From an uncultured Bacilli bacterium (GTDB lineage: Bacteria; Bacillota_I; Bacilli_A; RF39; UBA660), in contig CANRGA010000004.1 in assembly GCA_947630055.1 (NCBI GenBank), positions 1 through 61,760 on the forward strand: a DNA stretch of 61,760 nucleotides. Direction: 5' to 3'. Below the pieces are notes generated by a model that was not told the origin of the DNA, made no database searches, and was given only the letters and a program-made list of their open reading frames with translations. Made by a program: the position numbers and the translations under genes. This document shows positions 13,604 through 61,651 of the stretch, in pieces; position 1 is the stretch's first letter; every line of letters starts with the position of its first letter.

Positions 13604-14923
13604 CTATTCAATGCCTATTCTAAATGGATCATCTAACGTGCCTACCCCGCTAATATCCAAGTCAAACTTCAGATAAAATACTGGACGCACAGGAAGCTCA
13701 CTTCCCACATTCCAACCACCATCGACGTGGCCTCTCAAAGAAACGGACCAAGCATAGAAGTCGTAATCGGTTAGCCCAATACGCGACATAGTCCAATCCG
13801 CACCCCAACCACGTTGTGATGATAACCAACTTACTACAAAATCTTCATTTTTTGCCTCATCTAAAATATAATAATGTTTTGATATCATACAATTATATAT
13901 ACTATTACTTTCAAAACTACTACAATAATCTGTTAAAGTCAATAATCCTATATTTGCTGTTACATTATCGGTTAATTCGTTTTCTCTTTTTACTAATGCT
14001 TCTGATTCTAATTTTGATATTTCTTTTATTTTTTCACGTTTTTGATCATCATTTAATCCACTTTCATAATCATTTTCTTCAGTTCCATATATCGCATCAG
14101 ATAATTCATGATACTTTTCTAGTTCTTTAGGGGTAAATATGTTTTGATTTTCCTCATCAAAATCAATATTGGATATATCGCCATATTTCCATTCTGAATT
14201 TACTATCATTTCTTTTAAATCTATTGATAAGGTATTATAAAATTCACTATTTAAATATTGGTATAATTCACTTTGCGGCCATTTGATATCACTAGAAGAA
14301 TCGCTATTCCATGCAATACTATCATTTGCAGGAACATTTTTTACAACTTTTAATAATCCATCTTCTGTTACTCCAATTATTCGATATAAATCTTTTCCAT
14401 CTTCATTACAGTCTGCACCTAGGCATATATAATTGTTTTTTACTGTATCTTCTCTATCAAATACTCCAGCATCATGATTACTTATTATTGCATTTCCTTG
14501 ATATCTATATAAACCATATACTAATTCGTCTGTTAGTTTACCATCTGATTTTTCTTTTAATATATCTACAATAGATTCTTTTTTTATATCAAAATACAAT
14601 GTGCAATAGACTGTTTGAGTTGTAGTTAATGTTGCTTTTCCATCAGCAAATACTATTACATCTTCTACTAATGCACCATTATTATCTGTACATTTTGCTT
14701 CTTTATATACATATTCTTCACCTGGCCATGTATTACTATCATATTCTTCATAACCAGTTTCATTTTGAATCATTATGGCAAATGATTTATCTTTATTTAC
14801 TATTTCTTTTAATCTAACTTCAGGAAGATCATTATATTTTGACTTCATTATTTTATTACTTATAAATAACACTAAAAATATTCCTGTAATTACTATTAAA
14901 CATTTTAAATATTTTCTTTTCAT
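13604..14923 (-). CDS. Membrane-anchored surface protein with DUF6273-like C-terminus
   Basis: A 439-residue protein with one membrane segment (residues 8-24) and no other, so the rest is expected outside the cell. Residues about 45-115 look like a beta-sandwich ending in TTTQTVYCTLYF; this is followed by an EDTV-YICLG segment and a DLYRIIGV domain. The C-terminal 75 residues (WTMSR, AWSVSLRG, LPVRPVFYLK, GTLDDPFRI) resemble DUF6273-like domains common in gut Bacillota. Codons for residues about 363-437 are far more GC-rich than the rest. Transcription starts at a promoter with an eight-G spacer. Function is unknown; adhesion or recognition would fit. Confidence 0.75.
   Translation of the reverse strand: MKRKYLKCLIVITGIFLVLFISNKIMKSKYNDLPEVRLKEIVNKDKSFAIMIQNETGYEEYDSNTWPGEEYVYKEAKCTDNNGALVEDVIVFADGKATLTTTQTVYCTLYFDIKKESIVDILKEKSDGKLTDELVYGLYRYQGNAIISNHDAGVFDREDTVKNNYICLGADCNEDGKDLYRIIGVTEDGLLKVVKNVPANDSIAWNSDSSSDIKWPQSELYQYLNSEFYNTLSIDLKEMIVNSEWKYGDISNIDFDEENQNIFTPKELEKYHELSDAIYGTEENDYESGLNDDQKREKIKEISKLESEALVKRENELTDNVTANIGLLTLTDYCSSFESNSIYNCMISKHYYILDEAKNEDFVVSWLSSQRGWGADWTMSRIGLTDYDFYAWSVSLRGHVDGGWNVGSELPVRPVFYLKFDLDISGVGTLDDPFRIGIE
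13625..13832 (-). other. GC-rich 3' cassette inside the surface protein gene
   Basis: Bases 13681-13830 count 78 G/C out of 150 (52 percent), while the flanking part of the same gene is about a quarter to 30 percent. The change is abrupt on the 5' side of the codons, near GGTTGGGGTGCG, and fades into the stop codon. The block encodes the WTMSR to VRPVFYL region, the presumed variable face of the domain. Confidence 0.8.
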
Positions 14924-14975: not shown

Positions 14976-15003
14976 ATTATATAATACCCCCCCCGAGAGT
15001 CAA
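14976..15003 (-). promoter_or_regulatory. Promoter with an eight-G spacer, copy 1
   Basis: Read on the minus strand, the -35 TTGACT is at 15003-14998 and the -10 TATAAT at 14981-14976, a 16-base spacing. The spacer contains eight consecutive G (14994-14987). The start codon of the surface protein is 53 bases downstream, with a GAGAGG ribosome binding site. Adding one G would restore the ideal 17-base spacing. Confidence 0.8.
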
Positions 15004-35596: not shown

Positions 35597-36013
35597 TTAT
35601 AATTTATAATATTTTTTTATTAATTCTGCTTCTTTTTTTAATCCTCTTTTTTCAAGTTCTTTAACAAAAACTGGCCATGGTGGAATATTGCTCATATAAG
35701 TTCCACCTGGACCGGTATATAAGCCTCCGCTTGGACCGGTATATAAACCTCCTCCTGGGCCGGTATATAAACCTCCTCCTGGGCCGGTATATAAGCCTCC
35801 TCCTGGGCCGGTATATAAGCCTCCTCCTGGGCCGGTATATAAGCCTCCTCCTGGACCAGTATATAAACCTCCTCCTGGACCGGTATATAAGCCTCCATCT
35901 GGGCCTTCATATGCGCCTCCTCCTGGGCCGGTATATAAGCCTCCTCCTGGACCGGTATATAAGCCTCCTCCTGGGCCGGTATAATTATTTCTAGGCCATT
36001 GGTTCTTTTTCAT
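35597..36013 (-). CDS. Gly/Pro/Tyr-rich tandem repeat protein
   Basis: A protein with a short basic start ([10 protein letters not shown]), thirteen copies of the octapeptide YTGPGGGL, and a non-repetitive end ([28 protein letters not shown] in outline) that looks like one amphipathic helix pair. There is no signal peptide. The start overlaps the end of the ImmA-Fic gene; ATG 36013 or ATG 36019 fits the GAGGAG site. It is the third gene of the XRE / ImmA-Fic module. Function unknown; a target or scaffold for the Fic enzyme is possible. Confidence 0.7.
35698..35992. repeat. 24-bp coding minisatellite, thirteen units
   Basis: Tandem 24-bp units, one octapeptide each, with only scattered base changes. 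Most third-position changes are GGGCC/GGACC and AAGCC/AAACC, and the diverged unit encodes YEGPDGGL. Such high identity suggests recent expansion or gene conversion and likely copy-number variation between strains. Confidence 0.9.
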
Positions 36014-37385
36014 TATCATCAATCTCCTCATCAATTTCATCTACAAATAAATATCTATTTGTTTCAATCATCGTATTAATTATTCGCTTTTCAATAAACA
36101 TAATAAATGGTACTGGATCATTGTCTACATCCATTTTTGATAAAGCAGCATAATATTCTTTTTTACAATTATTATCAATATATATAGGTGGTATATTTTT
36201 TTTACTTAGTAGCCAATTTAATATGGCTCTTGAAATTCTACCATTACCATCTCTGAAAGGATGAATAATAACAAATTTATATGTAAAATAAGCAACTTGC
36301 TCTATATATTTATCTATATCATATTTATCAATATTTGCAATAAAAAATTGTAATTCTTTATCAAGTTTATTAATTTCATGACTTATTTCATAATAAGAAA
36401 CTGGCTGTATAGTACCACGATTTAATATTGCAGTTTCATCTCTATATTTTCCATTATCTTCAGGAAACGGAACATATTTATAAAGTAATGAATGCAATTC
36501 TTTACATTTTTTTAAAGATATTTCATCTTTTGTCGTTATCACATATTTTTGCAATTCTAAATTTCCAAGAGTCATAACAATTTCTTCATTAGTGCTAGAA
36601 AAAAATCGACTATTTTTACCATGATAGTTTAAATCTGCTAATATATAATTTAATTTTTTTCTATCAATATAATCACCTTCAAGTTTATTATCATTATAAA
36701 TATAATTTTGCAAAAATTTTTGTCCAGTATAACTATTAATATTTACCATCAAAAAACTCATTGAATTAACAACATTCGATAATAATTTACTATCAATTTT
36801 ACTTTTTATTAACTCTTGTCTTTTTGCTGATACACCATATTTTTTCATTCTTTTACGTAAAGATTCTGAAGATATATCTCCATCTATTAAATTTAAATCA
36901 TAGGCTATCCTATTTAAACAAGAATAAAAACTTACTCCAAAATATTCCGATATAATTGTAATATTTTCAAAATCAATAAATCCTTTAGAATTTTTATATT
37001 GCTCACAAATAAGTTTTAATTCGTTGGTAGGCATTAATAAATAACTAGCGAATGAATTGGCATATAATTCTATTTTTTTATTTGACTTTTTCAAACATTC
37101 AATACAATCATTTTTTCCTTTTTCCTTATTTAAATCTTTTATGTAATGACAATATTCATGAGCAGCTGTAAATCTTTGTCTTTGCCAAGTACTATTTGAA
37201 TTAATACCTACAATAGTACAATTGTCATCATCATTAATTATAACCCCATCTAAATTTTCAAAACTTTTTAATACAACAAACACACCTGAGTTGTTAAGAA
37301 TTTTAAATGGATCAATTGGAAAAGTCAATTCATTATTTCTTTTTAATTTTTCTAATACTGTGTTAGCTAATTCTTCTGGTGTCAT
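35991..37385 (-). CDS. ImmA/IrrE metallopeptidase fused to a Fic domain
   Basis: The N-terminal third is an ImmA/IrrE-type zinc peptidase with HEYCH at residues 76-80 and the third-ligand helix [14 protein letters not shown]. The C-terminal third is a Fic domain with HPFRDGNGR (375-383), needed for AMP transfer. NDNKLEG near residue 233 resembles the Fic inhibitory helix, with Asp in place of Ser/Thr. ATG 37385 has a GAGTGAT site; the HTH gene ends just upstream. The peptidase likely cleaves the HTH repressor, as in other Xre-ImmA pairs, and so couples a stress signal to Fic activity (inferred). Confidence 0.85.
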
Positions 37386-44580: not shown

Positions 44581-45597
44581 TTATTCATATCTAATGTTTT
44601 TTATAAAATTAATAATCTTTTCAAAAAACTTTTGAGATAATATAATTGTAAGTATAAATGCTACTGGAAATAATATTAAATAATTCGTTTGATAAATAAT
44701 ACTATTTGGTTTATTAAACAAATATATGAATAATGTTACTAATGGCCTATGAAACATATAAACTGATAAACTTCTTCCACCAAGATTAGTAAATATATTT
44801 TTATTTTTAGGTGTTATAGATAATAAACTTATTATAAACAATGCATTTACACCATAATATGCTAGTCTCACTAATCCTCCTAAACTTTTAAAGCCAGGTA
44901 AATTACTAAATGGTGTTTGAGCTGTTAATAAAGCTTTATATGGGAATATCTTATCAATAAACAAGTAAAATAAAATTATTGTTAAAATTAAATATAATAC
45001 CGAAAGCACTCTAATTTTGTTGTTTTTTACAAATTTTGTTATCTTTTGTATATCTATAATATAACCTGCTAAAAAGAATGGATAAAAAACAAATGTTCTC
45101 GATAAGCATAAAAATGAATTAAAATTTCTGTCATAGCCTATACAACATGCAAATATAATAGAAATGATTAATAGATATTTCTTATTTAATTTGTTTAATA
45201 ATATTGTAATAATATAAAAGAAAAAAATAGAAAGAATAAACCATTGAAATCCTCCGACATCAAATAAGTTTATTGTTGGTATTTTTGCATTAAATGCAAA
45301 ATGAAAAATTATATTAAATAATAAAGTATAAATTTGAAGTGCTATATATAATATGAAAAATTCACTAACTTTTTTTAAGTTTTTTTCTTTTATTGTATTT
45401 TTACTAAAAAGTCCACTTATGAAAATGAAAGCAGGCATATGAAATGTGTAAATATAAGTCCAAATAATTTTTATATAATTTGAAGAATGAAAAAAGTAGC
45501 CAATAAAATGACCAGTAACAACCAACAAAATCAAGATAAATTTTAAATTATCATATAATGCAATACGTTCTTTTTTTATAAAAATCACTCCATTCAT
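44581..45597 (-). CDS. Acyltransferase family 3 membrane protein
   Basis: A ten-span O-acyltransferase that usually moves acetyl or succinyl groups onto sugars. KKERIALYDNLKFILILLVVTGH at the N-terminus (in outline) carries the catalytic His, followed by YTFHMPAFIFISG. The ATG at 45597 has no ribosome binding site. A GGAGTGAT site is placed 4 bases before an in-frame ATA at 45579, so translation may start there with KKERIAL. It heads the tarI/tarJ unit and probably acylates the teichoic acid or a wall sugar. Confidence 0.85.
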   Translation of the reverse strand: MNGVIFIKKERIALYDNLKFILILLVVTGHFIGYFFHSSNYIKIIWTYIYTFHMPAFIFISGLFSKNTIKEKNLKKVSEFFILYIALQIYTLLFNIIFHFAFNAKIPTINLFDVGGFQWFILSIFFFYIITILLNKLNKKYLLIISIIFACCIGYDRNFNSFLCLSRTFVFYPFFLAGYIIDIQKITKFVKNNKIRVLSVLYLILTIILFYLFIDKIFPYKALLTAQTPFSNLPGFKSLGGLVRLAYYGVNALFIISLLSITPKNKNIFTNLGGRSLSVYMFHRPLVTLFIYLFNKPNSIIYQTNYLILFPVAFILTIILSQKFFEKIINFIKNIRYE

Positions 45598-45912
45598 TTA
45601 ATTTATATATAACAAAATATAACAAATGCTTAAAAATATTGTGACAAAAATAATTGAAAATGTTTTTTATATTTTACATTTTTATAAATAAAAATAACAA
45701 TAAATTTATTCAATTACACAATTTTAAAAGAATTAAAATTATAATTTTTTATAAAGATATTATAATATTTTTCTCATACATTTGTAAATAATATTTTTTG
45801 TTTTTATTATAATTTGTAATTTTTTTATTTTAAAAGAACTGAATTTATTTTACTTCAGTTCTTTCAAACTTATCATTTATTAATATTTATAAATTCACAT
45901 ATCTTAATTGTT
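45598..45912. other. AT-rich intergenic stretch of 315 bases
   Basis: It holds the upstream region of the acyltransferase gene and, near its right end, an 11-bp hairpin (AAAGAACTGAA/TTCAGTTCTTT, 45833-45864) that can end yfhO transcription. I see no gene or other element in the rest. Confidence 0.6.
45833..45864 (-). terminator. Hairpin after the yfhO-like gene
   Basis: The perfect 11-bp stem has a 10-base loop and TTTT at its base on the minus strand; the T run is short, so termination may be partial. Confidence 0.5.
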
Positions 45913-53484: not shown

Positions 53485-53540
53485 AAAAAAATTAATTTAT
53501 TTTGCTTATTTAATAAAACAAAAATAAATTAATTTTTTTT
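53485..53540 (-). terminator. Long AT hairpin terminator after the phase-variable acyltransferase gene
   Basis: On the minus strand an AATTAATTTATTTT arm pairs with its complement AAAATAAATTAATT across an 18-base loop, followed by seven T. It covers the stop codon of the gene at 53529. Confidence 0.75.
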
Positions 53541-54587
53541 CTTAAATATTCTGCAAACATAATTTAATATAATTCCACTAATAATGCTTGATAAAACTGC
53601 AAGCAAAATATTAACTTTATAACTCGAAGTAAGTAGCATCATATTAAATGTACCTTTAACATAAATCATATGGCAAATATAAATATCAAAAGAATATTTA
53701 TCTGAAAAATCTAAAATTCTTTTTATGATTTTATATTTAGTTAGTAATTTTCCTATTAAATAGTAAAAATAAAACAAAGTTAAAGCTTGAAAAAAGCAAC
53801 TATAATTAATTCCTAGATTTACTAAATTAATTAATAATATACCCTCAATATTAGGCTTTATATTATATCTTAAAATATACCAAAAATAAATTACTCCAAA
53901 TAATAATATTGCATTTACTATAGATAAACTTATTTTACTTACTAATTTACTATTTTGAATCTTTTCTTTTAAAAGTGGTAATAGAAAAAATCCAATAAAA
54001 TAGCAATTAATCCTATTTGCAGCAAAATATGAACGAAAGGCATAACCGAAAATCTCAATTAATATCATCCAAATAATAACATATAATACATATTTTATTT
54101 TAGAATCTTTTGATTTCTGTTTTAAATAATTTCTTAAATCATAAAAAAGTGGCGTTAAAATATAACAAAATATAATATATGGAATAAACCATAAATGATT
54201 AACACCATGAAATGTATTAGAAAAAGTTAAAAGCGAAAAAGCACTACCAATTGTAATTGTCCCAGGATTTCTAAAATAATAGATCGGTATAATAACAAAT
54301 ATTACATATACATAATAATCAATTAATATTTTTTTAAAATTTTTAGAAATAAATTTAATTCTTGAAGTGTCTTTTTCAAATAAATCTTTTTTACAGCCAT
54401 ATAAATAGCCTGACAAAATCAAGAAAATTTGAACACCTACAGCTAAAAAATTACCTAATATTCCAACTTTAATACTGTAACCACCATAGCCAATTTGTTC
54501 AAATATATGACAAAATATTACCATAAACATTGCTATAAAACGTATCAAACTCAAATTATAATCTTTTTCTTTATTTATTTCTTTCAT
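53529..54587 (-). CDS. Acyltransferase family 3 membrane protein under a switchable promoter
   Basis: A 352-residue ten-span O-acyltransferase. YNLSLIRFIAMFMVIFCHIFEQ at the N-terminus (in outline) has the catalytic His, followed by QIFLILSGYLYG and HLWFIPYIIFCYI. It is a single gene between a strong terminator and a promoter with an eight-G spacer. It probably decorates a surface polysaccharide or teichoic acid with an acyl group, and its expression is likely on in some cells and weaker in others. Confidence 0.87.
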   Translation of the reverse strand: MKEINKEKDYNLSLIRFIAMFMVIFCHIFEQIGYGGYSIKVGILGNFLAVGVQIFLILSGYLYGCKKDLFEKDTSRIKFISKNFKKILIDYYVYVIFVIIPIYYFRNPGTITIGSAFSLLTFSNTFHGVNHLWFIPYIIFCYILTPLFYDLRNYLKQKSKDSKIKYVLYVIIWMILIEIFGYAFRSYFAANRINCYFIGFFLLPLLKEKIQNSKLVSKISLSIVNAILLFGVIYFWYILRYNIKPNIEGILLINLVNLGINYSCFFQALTLFYFYYLIGKLLTKYKIIKRILDFSDKYSFDIYICHMIYVKGTFNMMLLTSSYKVNILLAVLSSIISGIILNYVCRIFKKKN

Positions 54588-54614: not shown

Positions 54615-54642
54615 ATTTTATAATACCCCCCCCGAGAGTCAA
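54615..54642 (-). promoter_or_regulatory. Promoter with an eight-G spacer, copy 2
   Basis: The -35 TTGACT is at 54642-54637 and a -10 TAAAAT at 54620-54615, 16 bases apart, with eight G at 54633-54626. From the -35 through TATTATA it is identical to copy 1 (24 bases). The start codon is 28 bases downstream with an AAGGAAA site. Confidence 0.8.
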
Positions 54643-54835: not shown

Positions 54836-55180
54836 ATGATTAGTAATGGTATAGATTTAATAGAAATTGATAGATTTAGTAGTTTAATAAATAATAAAAC
54901 ATTTTTAGATAAAAATTTTTCTATTAATGAACTTGCTTATCTTAACAAACATCATAATATTCAAACTTTAGCTGGACTATATGCTAGTAAAGAAGCTTTT
55001 TTAAAAGCCTTAGGAGTTAGTTTAGATGGATATGATTTTAAAAATATTGAAATATTACATAATGATAAAGGAAAACCATACATTAATTTAATAAAAAAAG
55101 ATATAGATTATAAAAATATTTCTTTATCTATATCTCATGATAATAACATAGTTATAGCCAGTGTTATCATATTATTTTAG
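54836..55180 (+). CDS. acpS: Holo-[acyl-carrier-protein] synthase
   Basis: AcpS attaches the phosphopantetheine arm of CoA to carrier proteins. GIDLIEIDRF at the N-terminus binds the metal, and LYASKEAFLKALG plus SLSISHD complete the active site. At 114 residues it is standard. AGGTGAT lies 5 bases before the ATG. It converges on the dlt-like operon with a four-base overlap. Its product is needed to activate the carrier protein of that operon. Confidence 0.95.
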   Translation: MISNGIDLIEIDRFSSLINNKTFLDKNFSINELAYLNKHHNIQTLAGLYASKEAFLKALGVSLDGYDFKNIEILHNDKGKPYINLIKKDIDYKNISLSISHDNNIVIASVIILF

Positions 55181-56121
55181 CTTGTATAAATTTTATAACT
55201 CTCATTCCATGATTGATACTTTTTATCTTTTCTATGATCCTTTACTAAGCCACTATCTTTTAAATAATTTCCTAAATAGTCAGAAACTTTATACGCACCC
55301 CTAAAATTTAAATGTCCCCCTCCGTCTTTGACATCAATTTGCCAATTTATTTTTAAAAGATTGTCTAAATTAAAATCTATAAATTCCAGATTATATTTAT
55401 TAGCTAAATCAGAAATTGAATTATGTTTTTTGTAGTTCCATAATTTTAAATTTGGAATACTAATTAAAACTAATTTTACTTCATTTTTTTCACATAACTT
55501 AACTATTTTATTAAAATATTCAATGTTTTCATCAACAATTGGCAAATATTCTTTAGAATATTCCATATAATTATATCTACTCTTCGGAGCAGGTTTAATT
55601 TTTTTAATTAAATGATATCCTTTATAAAAATCAAATTTTGTAAATTTTTTATCATTATTTAAAAAATTGAACAAGTATTTTTTCCAATTGTCATGATAAT
55701 TAATAATTGGAATATATCTATTAGTCAACCAAAGTTTTATAGTATCTATAGGTATATTTTTTGGATTTCTAAATAAAACATCTGATTCAAGAAAAATTAC
55801 TTTAGGATGCTGACTATTAATAGATTCTTGTATTGTCTCATAAGATATTATCGGAATTTGTCCAGCAAGAGCGCAATCATACATTGTGTAGCCATATTTA
55901 TCCCATACTACCATTGGATTAATACCTGAATAAACCAAACTATCACCAACTACCACTGCATCTATTGTATTTTCTTCTTCACTTAAAATAGGATAATTTG
56001 CAGTATACAATATTCCATACTTTTTAACAGCGCGCCACGGAAGTAGCAAACATGATATACCTGCAATTAATAAGAATAAAATAAACATAAATAATATACT
56101 TTTTCCAATATTCTTAATCAT
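55177..56121 (-). CDS. SGNH-hydrolase-like membrane-anchored protein (DltD/AlgX-like role)
   Basis: One N-terminal membrane anchor (residues 8-28) and an extracellular SGNH fold. VVVGDSLVYSGINP holds the catalytic Ser in block I, GQIPIISYET gives block II, and GGGHLNFRGAYKVSDYL in outline gives the Asp/His-type block V (His with Asn). ATG 56121 has AGGGTGAT. It is last in the operon after the MBOAT gene, the position of DltD or of acyl-transfer partners in alginate acetylation. It likely completes acyl transfer outside the cell. Confidence 0.82.
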   Translation of the reverse strand: MIKNIGKSILFMFILFLLIAGISCLLLPWRAVKKYGILYTANYPILSEEENTIDAVVVGDSLVYSGINPMVVWDKYGYTMYDCALAGQIPIISYETIQESINSQHPKVIFLESDVLFRNPKNIPIDTIKLWLTNRYIPIINYHDNWKKYLFNFLNNDKKFTKFDFYKGYHLIKKIKPAPKSRYNYMEYSKEYLPIVDENIEYFNKIVKLCEKNEVKLVLISIPNLKLWNYKKHNSISDLANKYNLEFIDFNLDNLLKINWQIDVKDGGGHLNFRGAYKVSDYLGNYLKDSGLVKDHRKDKKYQSWNESYKIYTS

Positions 56122-56132
56122 TTCTATCACCC

Positions 56133-57719
56133 TTAAAAATCTACATATATTGGATCAACAGGCAAATAACCTGCTCCATATGCCCCAAATACAATAATGG
56201 CTAATATTAATGCATAATATAATGTCCATCTTACATAAATTGGTTTTTTACTTATATCTTCACGAATATTTTTTCCCTTTTCTTTTAAAATACTAATAAC
56301 AAGAATAAATATTAATGCTAGTGCAACAATTGCAAAATCCTTAATATCCATTCCTAATGCAAAAACTTCATTTTTAAACGCTGCAACATTAAAATCAGTA
56401 ACTATTTTCTTTATCATACCAAAACCATACAATAATCTTGGGGCTCTAAAGAATAACTCACCTATGAAAACTAAAATAGTAGTTTTTATTATTCTAAAAA
56501 ATACATATATTTTATTTTGACGATTTATGTTTAATATTTCACATATCTTTGCAATAATTGGTTCAAAAATATTTCCTAAAAATATTAAGGCAAAATGATA
56601 ATAACCAAAGAATAAAAATGTTAAACCTGCTCCATGCCATAAGCCATTAAGTGACCAAACAAAGAACAAAGCTATTCCACCCATTATTATAGAAGCAAAT
56701 CTATGGCCAAATACTTTTTTATTAAAATTTGTAAGCATTTTAACTGGTTTAGATAAAGAAACTGGATAAAAAATATAATCTTTAAGCCAAGTTCCTAAAG
56801 TAATATGCCATCTAGACCAAAATTCTGATATGTTCTTTGAGAAAAATGGTTGACGAAAATTTTCAGGCAATATTATATCAAATATTTCAGCAGAACCGAT
56901 AACAACATCCATTGTTCCCGAAAATTCCATATATAACATTATAGTATAGAAAATTGCTCCGACTAAAGATGTAACACCAGAATAAAGCATATAATTTTGA
57001 AAAGCTAACTTAACAAAAATATTTAATCTATCAGCAATTACATATTTTTTAAACATACCAAAAAGTATTCTTTGATAACCAAAGCATAAATTATTATAAG
57101 TAACTTTATTACCAGCATAAATCCTATCTTTTACATCTGTATATCTAGCAATTGGTCCTTCCATAATTGAAGGAAAAAATGTTAAATATAAGCACACTTT
57201 TAAAATGTTTTTTTCGGCACTTATTTTTTCATTATATACATCTACTATATAAGATATAGCTTTTAATGTATAATATGATATCCCAATCGGGGCAATAAAT
57301 TTAACAATTTCAAAGGACAAATTTATCTTAAATATTACAAATAGTCTATTAGCAATTTTTGCAAAAAATCCTAAATATTTAAAATAAAATAGAAAAGATA
57401 CATTAAATATTATTGTTATAATCAAAATTATTTTTTTATATCTTTTATATTTTCCTTTAATTTTTTTACGTTCTTCTCTTTCTTTGCCTTCACATATTAA
57501 ATCTCTTTTACTATCTATTTTTTGCAATAATAATCCTGCTAAATAAATTGATAAAAAGGACAATAATACATAAATTATTAACCACTTACTAATATAGAAA
57601 ATTAATCCCAAACTTGCACATAACAAAATAATTGGTTTTAATTTTTTTGACATTAGTGAATATAGGATTATAACAATTGGTAAAAATATAAAAATATATT
57701 TAATGCCAAAATATGTCAT
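56133..57719 (-). CDS. MBOAT-family O-acyltransferase (DltB/AlgI-like)
   Basis: A 528-residue membrane protein with about 11-13 spans. The MBOAT pieces are IAPIGISYYTLKAISYIVDVY in outline, SIMEGPIARY, FWSRWHITLGTWLKDYIFYP in outline, and the active-site NGLWHGAGLTFLFFGYYH with the catalytic His. It is longer than DltB (about 400) and closer in size to AlgI or PatA types. It begins one base after the carrier-protein stop and should move the acyl group from the carrier across the membrane. Confidence 0.92.
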   Translation of the reverse strand: MTYFGIKYIFIFLPIVIILYSLMSKKLKPIILLCASLGLIFYISKWLIIYVLLSFLSIYLAGLLLQKIDSKRDLICEGKEREERKKIKGKYKRYKKIILIITIIFNVSFLFYFKYLGFFAKIANRLFVIFKINLSFEIVKFIAPIGISYYTLKAISYIVDVYNEKISAEKNILKVCLYLTFFPSIMEGPIARYTDVKDRIYAGNKVTYNNLCFGYQRILFGMFKKYVIADRLNIFVKLAFQNYMLYSGVTSLVGAIFYTIMLYMEFSGTMDVVIGSAEIFDIILPENFRQPFFSKNISEFWSRWHITLGTWLKDYIFYPVSLSKPVKMLTNFNKKVFGHRFASIIMGGIALFFVWSLNGLWHGAGLTFLFFGYYHFALIFLGNIFEPIIAKICEILNINRQNKIYVFFRIIKTTILVFIGELFFRAPRLLYGFGMIKKIVTDFNVAAFKNEVFALGMDIKDFAIVALALIFILVISILKEKGKNIREDISKKPIYVRWTLYYALILAIIVFGAYGAGYLPVDPIYVDF

Positions 57720-57720
57720 A

Positions 57721-57948
57721 TTATTCCTCTTCTAGTCTTTGAATTAATTCCCAAATTTTTTTAGCAGAATTAAAGTTTGCTGGAATTATTTCTACTGTTG
57801 GAATAACAACATCAAATTCATCTTCAATTTCACTTATTAGTGAAAGAATTGTAAGTGAATCTAAATATCTTCCATCCACTAAATTTTCACATGTTTCATA
57901 ATCTACTTCAGGTTGTAATTCTTTTAATATTTCAATTAATTTTTCCAT
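57721..57948 (-). CDS. Carrier protein (DltC/ACP-like)
   Basis: A 75-residue acidic helical carrier protein. Ser31 in the motif YLDSLTI is the phosphopantetheine attachment site; DEFDVVIP follows as in DltC. ATG 57948 sits behind GGAG, and a GTG three codons upstream is not needed. The gene lies between the decarboxylase-fold enzyme and the MBOAT. The divergent neighbourhood supplies acpS at 54836. Confidence 0.92.
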   Translation of the reverse strand: MEKLIEILKELQPEVDYETCENLVDGRYLDSLTILSLISEIEDEFDVVIPTVEIIPANFNSAKKIWELIQRLEEE

Positions 57949-57961
57949 TATTCTCACTCCT

Positions 57962-59125
57962 TTAAATATTATTTGGAAAATTTAAATTGCTTGTTTTAAA
58001 TTTTTCACGAACAACTTTGTAACTACTATATTCGTATAATATCACTTTTGGCAAATCACGACTTAAAAATAATGATATACCTTCAGTACTTGAATATGCT
58101 CCAACATTTTTAAAAACAAAAATGTCATCTATTTTTAATTTACGACAAGTTATATTTTTTACTAAAAAATCATTTATCGTACATAATGAACCACATAAAT
58201 TATATGTTTCATTAACATCATCTTTATGAGGTAATAATTCATAATGTGGTATTTTCATTCCCATTGTCTGACCATAATATACTAAATGATTAATACCACC
58301 ATCCATAATTACAAAATTACCATATTTATTAGTTTTCATATCAACCACTTTAGTAAGATAAGATCCACAAGATGCCGCAATACTTCTACCTATTTCTAAT
58401 GTTACTTTTTTATTTTTTATCTTATCAAGAATTACTTTAAAACTCTCCAAAAATTCATCTTCAGCAAATTCTTCACCTTGATAATAATATACTGGCAAGC
58501 CAGTACCAAATTCAATTTCTTTTACTTCAAAATTCAATTCTTTTTCAATTTTTGCAGTTAGTTCTATCAAATAATCTATTTCTTTTTCTAATCTTTTTAA
58601 AGAATGTTTTTGTGTTCCAGAGAAATATTCAATACCATCAATAATAATAAAATCTTTATTATAAATATTAATTAATTCAAATAATTCATCTTCATTAATA
58701 CCAAATTGATTACCACTAGTTAATCTAGGTAAAACATGTAAACAACAATTATATTTTTGCGATAGTTTTAGTAAAAGATTATATTGATTAATTGATTCAA
58801 TAGTATATTTTGGCAAACTACCATGATTTTTTATTATATTTTCAATTGTTTCTTCATCTTTATAAACACCAGATATAACCATTTTTTCAGGATTAATATT
58901 TAGTTTATCGCAAATTTCATATTCACCTGGAGAACATATTTCAAATCGTGAAACACTATTTTCTAAATGTTTAGCAATAAACGTATTAGCTTTTACTGCA
59001 TAAACCAAATCATATTTTGAACCAAGTCTCTGCTTTAAATATTCTACTCTTTTTAAAAGAACATCAGTATCATAAACATAACTAGGTGTACCATATTCTT
59101 TAACTATTTTATTATAATCTATCAT
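57962..59125 (-). CDS. PLP-dependent decarboxylase-fold enzyme (LysA family)
   Basis: A fold-type III PLP enzyme of 387 residues. Lys45 in VYAVKANTF should bind PLP; EIEFGTGLPVYY and EIGRSIAASCGSYLT bind phosphate and cofactor; LCGSLCTINDFL is the C-terminal active-site loop with the catalytic Cys. It is shorter than most diaminopimelate decarboxylases and sits between an adenylating enzyme and a carrier protein, overlapping the former by four bases. It may make the amino acid or amine that is loaded on the carrier. Normal dlt operons lack such a gene. Confidence 0.85.
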   Translation of the reverse strand: MIDYNKIVKEYGTPSYVYDTDVLLKRVEYLKQRLGSKYDLVYAVKANTFIAKHLENSVSRFEICSPGEYEICDKLNINPEKMVISGVYKDEETIENIIKNHGSLPKYTIESINQYNLLLKLSQKYNCCLHVLPRLTSGNQFGINEDELFELINIYNKDFIIIDGIEYFSGTQKHSLKRLEKEIDYLIELTAKIEKELNFEVKEIEFGTGLPVYYYQGEEFAEDEFLESFKVILDKIKNKKVTLEIGRSIAASCGSYLTKVVDMKTNKYGNFVIMDGGINHLVYYGQTMGMKIPHYELLPHKDDVNETYNLCGSLCTINDFLVKNITCRKLKIDDIFVFKNVGAYSSTEGISLFLSRDLPKVILYEYSSYKVVREKFKTSNLNFPNNI

Positions 59126-60633
59126 ACTTTTTCACCTACTCCTGCAATTAACTTTTTACGATCGATTTTTCCGTTCTTTGTCATTGGGAAAACATCCTTT
59201 TTTATAAGTTTAGTAGGGATCATATATACTGGTAAAACTTCACTTAATTTAGCATGTAATTCTTTTTTATCAATATCGCCAATGTAAAAACCATAAAGGC
59301 GAGATTTTTCTTCATCAAATATGCAACAACTTCTAATTACTTCAGGAAAATCCATCAAAGCTTTATCTATTTCTTCAAGTTCAATTCTATGCCCCATATA
59401 TTTTATTTGAAAATCTTTACGCCCCGTAAAAACTATTTCATCAAATTCGTTTATATATCCTAGATCTCCTGTTCGATAAATCATATCCAAATAATTATTG
59501 TTATTAGGATTTTGCATAAAATGATTTCTTGTTTGTTCTTCATTATTGTAATATCCTAATCCTAAAGCTGTTCCAGCTACACAAATTTCACCTGTTTTAT
59601 TTCTATCATCAATAATTTCATTTTTATCATTTAGTAATATTACTCTTTCATTTGGAAAAGGTAATCCTACTGGAATTTTTTCTTCATAATTTCTATTTCT
59701 ATCTATAATATGATATAAACAATTACAAGTTATTTCCGTTGGACCATAAATATTTACAAATGTAGTATCTGGTAATTTGTCCATCCACATTTTAAGATGC
59801 TTTAAAGGCATTACTTCGCCACTGAAAAGGATTTTTTTAACTGAAGTAGGTACTTTGTAGTCAAGACCATGAAAAGTTGTAATTAAGCATAAAGCGGATA
59901 CTGCCCAAGTTAATGTATTAACATTATGCTCACAAATGTAATCTAACAAAAGTGCTGGATTAGAAAAATATTTTTTAGGGATAATGACAAGCGTAGCGCC
60001 CATTTTAATCGCTGAAAATATATCTTTAACTGAAACATCAAAATCAAATGGAGCTTGATTTCCTATTATATCGTTTTCGGTAAAATTAAAAAGACATGTA
60101 AAAACATCAATAAAATCTATAACAGAGCGATGTGATATAACTACACCCTTAGGAACTCCAGTTGAACCTGAAGTGAAATTTACATATAATGGATCACAAT
60201 CAATGTGTTTATTGTAACAAACATTTAAAATATTATTATCTATTTTGCCTTTTTTTAAATCGCCAATTTTTACTACTTCTAAATCTTTAAAATACTTATT
60301 TGCTTCATCATAGTATTCAGAATTAGTAATGACTATTTTAGATTTTATTGTTTCTTTAATTTGATTTATTCTTACTTCAGGTAATTCTGGATTAATTAAC
60401 GAATAAAAACACCCAGCATAAATTGTACCAAAAAAAGCAATTAAAGTATCTATCCCTTTATCCATAAATACTATAACTGGTTCATTAAATTGTTTTTTAC
60501 CAATATATGATCCAACAATTTTACTATAATTGTTTAATTCACTATAATTTATCTTTTTATCTTCTTCAATTATGGCAATTTTATCTTTAAATTTTTTACT
60601 TGAATTTTCTAAATAATCTATAACATTATACAT
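59122..60633 (-). CDS. DltA-like amino acid adenylating enzyme
   Basis: A 503-residue AMP-forming ligase that activates an amino or other acid and loads it onto the carrier protein. Core motifs are NFTSGSTGVPKGVV (P-loop), FVNIYGPTEIT (motif A5), YRTGDLGY (A7) and a C-terminal NGKIDRKKL (A10 lysine). The size and gene order match DltA, but D-alanine specificity is not proven, and the neighbouring PLP enzyme suggests another substrate. It heads the operon. Its start has a GGGTGA site and its promoter has an eight-G spacer. Confidence 0.88.
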   Translation of the reverse strand: MYNVIDYLENSSKKFKDKIAIIEEDKKINYSELNNYSKIVGSYIGKKQFNEPVIVFMDKGIDTLIAFFGTIYAGCFYSLINPELPEVRINQIKETIKSKIVITNSEYYDEANKYFKDLEVVKIGDLKKGKIDNNILNVCYNKHIDCDPLYVNFTSGSTGVPKGVVISHRSVIDFIDVFTCLFNFTENDIIGNQAPFDFDVSVKDIFSAIKMGATLVIIPKKYFSNPALLLDYICEHNVNTLTWAVSALCLITTFHGLDYKVPTSVKKILFSGEVMPLKHLKMWMDKLPDTTFVNIYGPTEITCNCLYHIIDRNRNYEEKIPVGLPFPNERVILLNDKNEIIDDRNKTGEICVAGTALGLGYYNNEEQTRNHFMQNPNNNNYLDMIYRTGDLGYINEFDEIVFTGRKDFQIKYMGHRIELEEIDKALMDFPEVIRSCCIFDEEKSRLYGFYIGDIDKKELHAKLSEVLPVYMIPTKLIKKDVFPMTKNGKIDRKKLIAGVGEKV

Positions 60634-60658
60634 AAATTCACCCTATTTACACACTTTT

Positions 60659-60686
60659 AAAAAGAATTAAAATGTTAATTCTTTTT
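60659..60686 (-). promoter_or_regulatory. Perfect hairpin in the leader of the dlt-like operon
   Basis: On the minus strand AAAAAGAATTAA pairs perfectly with TTAATTCTTTTT around a 4-base loop, between the promoter and the ribosome binding site. With its U-rich right arm it could attenuate transcription or stabilise the leader. Confidence 0.5.
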
Positions 60687-60698
60687 GCCTATAAGAAT

Positions 60699-60728
60699 AT
60701 TATAGTATACCCCCCCCGAATTTGTAAA
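60699..60728 (-). promoter_or_regulatory. Promoter with an eight-G spacer, copy 3
   Basis: The -35 TTTACA is at 60728-60723 and a perfect TATAAT at 60704-60699, 18 bases apart. The spacer has eight G at 60717-60710. Losing one G would give the ideal 17 bases. The block after the -10 (ATTCTTATA) is shared with copy 2 and nearly with copy 1. The dlt-like operon starts 66 bases downstream. Confidence 0.78.
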
Positions 60729-60763
60729 CACTATTTTTAATTTTTTTGACAATCTGTATAGCT

Positions 60764-60808
60764 ATAAAATAAAACTATCAAATTTACAATTTGATAGTTT
60801 TATTTTAT
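60764..60808 (-). terminator. Long perfect hairpin at the end of the Rpn-like gene
   Basis: About 19 bp of perfect complementarity (TAAAATAAAACTATCAAAT and its complement) around a short loop covers the stop codon at 60800 and ends in T-rich sequence on both strands. Confidence 0.75.
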
Positions 60809-61651
60809 ATTTTTCTTTAATCTATTTATTTCTTTTTTAGTTAATGATGTATATTTCATTATTACATCTATTGGCATATTGTCTTTTAACATATTTATAG
60901 CAATATTGTCTTTTTCTTCTGTTATACCTTTTATTATACCTTCATCTCTGGCTTCAGATATTTCTGATCTTCTTATCTTTTCTTGATCTTCTTCATAACT
61001 TAAATGATTTATTACTACTCCATCTTTTGTTAATGTTAGCATTCTTTCTTCATACTCCTTTACTACTTTATCTTTTTTGCCTAACTTCTCTATCTCGTCC
61101 ATATTTGCATTTAACATTACTAGATGTATATGTTCTTTGTTCCCTTTTATGCATTCATCATACCATAGCTTTTTGTACTTAACAAGATTTACATTTATTA
61201 TCTTAAATGTATTTGTATATATACTTTTATCTTCTACACATGTTATTAAATATGTCTTTTTTGCTAACTCTACTTCACTATCGTGATTTAAGTTTATTAA
61301 AACTGTTTCTAAACCTTCATCATATTTTTTACTTTTTTCTACTATTTGCGAATAATATGATGCATAGTATGATAAGTTTCTTACTTTGATACTACTACTA
61401 AAATTACTATTTAACTCTACTAAGATATGTTTCCCTGTATTTGACTCCACTATTAAATCTGTTACTTTTACTCTTTCCGATTTTCTTCTTACTTTTAATT
61501 CTGTTGGCACAAATTCTATAACATGCACTTTTTCTTCTAAGATATCTGATAATATATAATCAAGTATTCTAGTATCATTTTCATTTGCTATGATAGCTTT
61601 AAAGATAGAATCATACATTAAAACTGGTTTATCTTGAAGTATAAAACTCAT
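60800..61651 (-). CDS. Rpn-family PD-(D/E)XK nuclease / transposase-like protein
   Basis: A 283-residue protein of the recombination-promoting nuclease family, common in several copies in gut Bacillota. The N-terminal DSIFKAIIANENDTRILDYIL in outline and the PD-(D/E)XK core KVTDLIVESNTGKHILVELN (Asp, then ExN in place of ExK) are visible. The C-terminus has KEEKDNIAINMLKDNMPIDVIMKYTSLTKKEI in outline. It stands alone. The strong SD at about 61675 is nearer to an ATG in another frame that stops after eleven codons, so the start is not certain. Confidence 0.82.
   Translation of the reverse strand: MSFILQDKPVLMYDSIFKAIIANENDTRILDYILSDILEEKVHVIEFVPTELKVRRKSERVKVTDLIVESNTGKHILVELNSNFSSSIKVRNLSYYASYYSQIVEKSKKYDEGLETVLINLNHDSEVELAKKTYLITCVEDKSIYTNTFKIINVNLVKYKKLWYDECIKGNKEHIHLVMLNANMDEIEKLGKKDKVVKEYEERMLTLTKDGVVINHLSYEEDQEKIRRSEISEARDEGIIKGITEEKDNIAINMLKDNMPIDVIMKYTSLTKKEINRLKKNIK

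Follow-up and report, generated by a model that had tools for sequence, protein, structure and literature searches.

Described poly-G promoters and related gene modules

Phase variation through homopolymeric tracts is best known from host-adapted Gram-negative bacteria, the spirochaetes and the mycoplasmas. In two described cases, Treponema pallidum tp0126 (encoding an OmpW protein) and Neisseria meningitidis porA, a poly-G tract lies in the spacer between the -35 and -10 elements, and its length controls transcription through its effect on a 17-nt spacing, which is optimal in tp0126; in porA it is slippage that alters the spacing (PMC7864442). The promoter described here, in an uncultured animal-gut bacterium of the Bacilli order RF39, resembles both in the location of its tract, and resembles tp0126 also in its association with surface genes and in the presence of several poly-G tracts per genome (PMC7864442). 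It differs from tp0126 in phylum and in that a near-identical promoter serves about 30 paralogs rather than single genes. Similarly, porA is a lone outer-membrane porin gene of a Gram-negative organism, whereas the promoters here are found throughout the genome of an uncultured member of the Bacilli, and one of them precedes an enzyme operon.

That operon invites comparison with two other gene groups. It shares with dltABCD, responsible for teichoic acid D-alanylation, an adenylating ligase, a carrier protein, an MBOAT protein, and a protein at the DltD position, but it scores below the Dlt cut-offs, has a different gene order and an extra PLP-dependent decarboxylase, and lacks a DltD match. 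The grouped butirosin genes for BtrJ, BtrI and BtrK constitute a module for decarboxylation of a carrier-bound amino acid, the substrate upon which BtrK acts. A ligase, a carrier protein and a fold-III PLP-dependent decarboxylase are likewise found together here, and BtrK is near the decarboxylase; however, the similarity is modest, and here the module is joined to membrane acyl-transfer genes. A literature search for phase variation together with RF39 gave no match, and the literature match for a phase-variable dlt operon concerns meningitis isolates.

A sigma-70-type promoter with a G8 spacer

The window (the whole 61,760-nt stretch of DNA analysed) contains three G8 tracts, compared to an expectation of zero from 100 shuffles. 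All three are on the minus strand, as are the other window features discussed below. Copy 1 (14987–14994) and copy 2 (54626–54633) both have 16-bp spacers and precede genes coding for a DUF6273 protein (13604–14923) and an acyltransferase (53529–54587) respectively, and copy 3 (60710–60717) is upstream of the Dlt-like operon. At copy 3, a -35 element, TTTACA (60723–60728), and a -10 element, TATAAT (60699–60704), together match the consensus at 11 of 12 positions (60728–60699), and the pair is the top-scoring promoter-like site across 53–61.8 kb of the window. The first-pass annotation had described an 18-base spacer with eight G at this copy, and this is borne out by the spacer AATTC-GGGGGGGG-TATAC (60705–60722), in which the G8 homopolymer, the proposed slippage site, runs uninterrupted between the two elements of a good sigma-70-type promoter. 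Transcription is predicted to start at 60692, 7 nt past the -10 element, from the sequence and from the TATA found at an equal offset after TATAAT in most of the poly-G promoters read from the genus. A Shine-Dalgarno-like AGGGTG is present at 60639–60644, and a terminator-like, 22-bp perfect hairpin at 60763–60809 lies where the upstream Rpn gene ends.

A genome-wide set of poly-G promoters

Throughout the genome (1.19 Mb, in 60 contigs) there are 38 tracts of at least seven G, and several patterns are apparent. First, 35 of these tracts are G8 followed by TA and are in promoter position, with two truncated by contig ends and one (L054) having no clear hexamers. The addition of a promoter of the main class with a G6 tract (C26:12348) gives a total of 36, i.e. 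35 with G8 and one with G6. Promoters of this main class (class 1) have the form TTGACTCTC-G8-TATTATATAAT with a 16-bp spacer, and also have about 75 bp in common downstream of the tract. The last three of the 38 tracts are part of a different repeat, AAAAAGA-G7/8-AAATATC, near contig ends; this AGGACAATAAAAAGA-G7/8-AAATATC repeat (L037:44, L038:10786 and L042:77, at three contig ends) is not a promoter and may represent a mobile-element terminus.

Secondly, spacer lengths are unevenly distributed among the 33 promoters in which they are measurable, with 23 at 16 bp, seven at 18 bp (copy 3 and six others), and one each at 14, 15 and 19 bp. None of the 33 has a 17-bp spacer (loci noted in this connection are L055, at G000:C5:33755–37349, L049 and L044), although we do not take this pattern as evidence because most of the copies are paralogs. 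Thirdly, the genes served are biased towards the membrane and surface, with an N-terminal membrane or signal segment in 28 of the 29 readable first genes, compared to a background of 18 of 51 ORFs in the window. Families represented among the first genes include DUF6273, a List-Bact-repeat protein, DUF6591, an acyltransferase, and a weak FIVAR match. The sole first gene without such a segment is that of the Dlt-like ligase, whose operon contains MBOAT and SGNH-position genes.

Because G8 tracts occur far beyond chance, and because 35 of the 38 tracts of at least seven G are in promoter position, we think it probable that copy 3 acts as a sigma-70-type promoter in which a slippage-prone poly-G tract determines the distance between the two elements, and that it belongs to a surface 'phasome' made up of about 36 promoters of this kind. 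Slips during copying would add or remove G residues and thereby change the spacer in single-base steps, and the altered length, starting from 18 bp at copy 3 and 16 bp in the main class, would lead to a random rise or fall in transcription. The addition of a G would take the main class from 16 bp toward 17 bp and copy 3 away from it, with loss of a G having the reverse effects.

Tract lengths in related genomes

Similar tracts are common among the relatives, whose records are labelled 'uncultured Bacilli bacterium' and come from 'Lapin' (rabbit) samples. Among the 38 genomes of the genus that were searched, G8-TA is present in 28 and G9-TA in 29, and a reversed control pattern is nearly absent. 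The exception is G041, the only genome with many matches to this control (ten to AT-G9-H in the whole genome), which are probably poly-G promoters with another flank. Across the order, matches were obtained for 61 of 193 genomes, representing 30 of 83 genera, with hits to the reversed control in just three genomes, and the sequences flanking the G run differ between genera.

The tracts of the relatives vary in length. When promoters were found without requiring G residues, tracts of 6 and 8 were recovered in the genome containing the window (G000), 8 and 9 in G004, and 7, 8 and 9 in G030, each species being represented by one consensus genome. Four adjacent paralogs in G004 share one promoter, with tracts of G10, G9, G9 and G8, and three tandem paralogs in G047 share one promoter with tracts of G9, G11 and G10. 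The 25 class-1 promoters of G004 are divided between G8 (12) and G9 (13), and on a tree of the corresponding 25 proteins the length label requires 9 changes, compared to 8.6 for shuffled labels, with at least six changes forced by well-supported branches (G004 alone was used for this test, as G030 has too few complete genes). Because the G004 labels carry no tree signal, tract length turns over at a rate no slower than that of divergence within the gene family, as slippage predicts and unlike the behavior of a fixed binding site.

The same observations bear on a different explanation, in which the G8 of a shared promoter is under constraint, either as a regulator site or as a spacer geometry suited to RNA polymerase, such that the surface genes are co-regulated without switching. 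The uniformity of the tracts in this genome (35 of 36 with exactly eight G), the conservation in the main class of the segment downstream of the tract, and the presence of mismatch repair genes are all as this explanation would have it; however, a single promoter occurs with G8 and G9 near-equally in G004, the tandem copies elsewhere range from 8 to 11 Gs, one G6 copy is present in the genome itself, and a fixed site is unlikely to tolerate the variation in flanks seen between genera. On balance we regard a constrained element as unlikely.

Slippage of poly-G spacers is thus the interpretation that we favor, although the 35 of 36 tracts at exactly G8 give little sign of current switching in this genome. 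The switchable promoter claimed in the first-pass annotation is supported at the level of the lineage, through the uninterrupted spacer tract, the surface-gene set and the length variation of the relatives, but not for the species itself. Missing mismatch repair was considered as a source of slippage and is ruled out, since both MutS1 and MutL genes were found in the genome. With these present slippage would be damped, and in combination with the uniform G8 tracts this suggests that slippage may currently be infrequent in this species.

The Dlt-like operon

The operon downstream of copy 3 contains five genes, coding for an AMP-ligase, a PLP-dependent decarboxylase, a carrier protein, an MBOAT protein and an SGNH-type protein. 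The ligase (59122–60633; PF00501, 2.1e-59) is of the DltA-like or NRPS-type AMP-binding family, and its nearest relatives are NRPS adenylation domains and DltA. The decarboxylase (57962–59125; PF02784 and PF00278) is a LysA/BtrK-like fold-III enzyme whose closest solved relatives in the PDB are DAP decarboxylases and BtrK. It is followed by a DltC-like carrier protein with an LDSL motif (57721–57957; PF00550), a DltB-like MBOAT acyltransferase (56133–57719; PF03062, with a match to DltB 6bug at 5e-17), and a protein at the DltD (SGNH) position (55177–56130) that is recognized by its conserved position and has no family match. None of the three components scored against DltA, DltB and DltC models reaches its equivalog cut-off: the ligase scores 281.9 bits against 559.85 for the DltA model, the MBOAT protein 146.2 bits against 375 for TIGR04091 (DltB), and the carrier 31.2 bits against 68 for DltC; the protein at the DltD position has no match to the DltD models. 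The order ligase–decarboxylase–carrier–MBOAT–SGNH is kept in most of the related loci that were fetched from Clostridia and Bacilli, the same operon being seen in dozens of them (L117–L184).

The operon was initially described as dlt-like, and its gene set is indeed that of a Dlt-like system, but the scores below cut-off and the extra decarboxylase set it apart from a canonical one. The further proposal, that it changes teichoic acid charge and with it peptide resistance, is not established by these findings, and D-alanylation is unproven because all of the Dlt cut-offs are missed and a BtrK/LysA-like decarboxylase is added. The most economical reading is that a decarboxylated amino acid is transferred, in a Dlt-like manner, onto a surface polymer: an amino acid would probably be activated, decarboxylated on the carrier protein, and moved across the membrane to the polymer, and in this species a promoter of the surface set would drive this operon too. 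We note that Selenomonas bovis (L168:7868) also has a G8 tract close to a TATAAT, preceding a gene for a DltA-like ligase whose operon differs from this one.

The leader hairpin

The predicted transcript has a hairpin, AAAAAGAATTAA-CATT-TTAATTCTTTTT (60659–60686), with a 12-bp perfect stem and a CATT loop, which begins approximately 6 nt from the predicted mRNA 5′ end and has a folding energy of -8.1 kcal/mol (z -5.3). Perfect stems of at least 12 bp (loops of 3–8) number three in the 61.8-kb window, compared to a mean of 0.25 in Markov sequences, and the other two, which are AT-rich, are located at gene ends and are terminator-like. The perfect 12-bp hairpin reported earlier in the untranslated leader is therefore genuine and unlikely to be a product of chance, but the attenuation ascribed to it finds no positive evidence here.

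As an attenuator, the hairpin would provide a second layer of control, compatible with any reading of the promoter. It is real and non-random, and elsewhere in the window two comparable AT-rich hairpins terminate genes, although in its own stem G-C pairs number just one or two, the U run is internal to the stem with none outside of it, and terminator calling gave none at this position; the leader thus lacks a terminator hairpin that is G+C-rich and precedes a U run. Moreover, no such hairpin is found in the leaders of the orthologous operons, it is degraded without compensating changes in a paralogous leader elsewhere in the window (see below), and folding of a single class-1 poly-G leader, that of copy 1, yielded none. 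We consider attenuation quite improbable, and no more likely than a role in stabilizing the mRNA 5′ end or than an incidental fold.

Origin of the copy-3 promoter

A segment of 85 bp that includes the copy-3 promoter (60690–60774) is shared at 89% identity with a second G8 locus, C28:4991–5076, which is downstream of a polA-like gene (named from sequence) and drives a gene for a DUF6273 surface-type protein. This likeness suggests that copy 3 has a portable promoter module in common with the surface set. None of the ten readable leaders of orthologous operons in the genus has a poly-G tract; poly-G control of the operon is therefore not conserved, and it was probably in this species or a close relative that the operon acquired such a promoter. 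For the same reason tract lengths at the Dlt-like locus cannot be compared across species. A transposon or site-specific inversion was considered as the basis of the shared promoter and rejected, as no long inverted repeats bracket the shared piece; the shared stretches reach up to the tract, as expected of copied promoters.

A paralogous promoter and leader with 72% identity is present at 45714–45818 (read from 45818 to 45714), upstream of a second acyltransferase gene (44581–45597), and has an 18-bp spacer, no G tract, a degraded hairpin, and no matching ATG. It is most readily interpreted as a relic, although it could be a poly-G-free version of the promoter. The idea that copy 3 is a passive passenger, which originated by copying from a surface-gene locus and today serves the operon as a plain constitutive promoter, draws on the identity with the C28 locus, the equal 18-bp spacing of the tract-free paralog and the ten tract-free orthologs, but is very unlikely, since in such AT-rich DNA an uninterrupted G8 would be expected to decay in the absence of selection, and apparently did so in the paralogous copy.

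Implications of possible poly-G switching

Returning to slippage-prone poly-G promoters, we tentatively put forward a broader possibility, namely that poly-G surface phase variation is used throughout this order of uncultured gut Bacilli with small genomes, and that capture of a Dlt-like decarboxylase operon here could make a new amino-acyl (decarboxylated) decoration switchable, with one added G moving the 16-bp and 18-bp promoters in opposite directions. If so, a large gut lineage, with dozens of poly-G promoters and with matches in a third of the order's sampled genomes, would diversify its surface by random switching, to which the operon would add a putative switchable surface modification. 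Existing metagenome reads would allow a direct test of such switching. Elsewhere in the window, we note that an ORF at 35597–36040 contains about ten near-perfect YTGPGGGL repeats.
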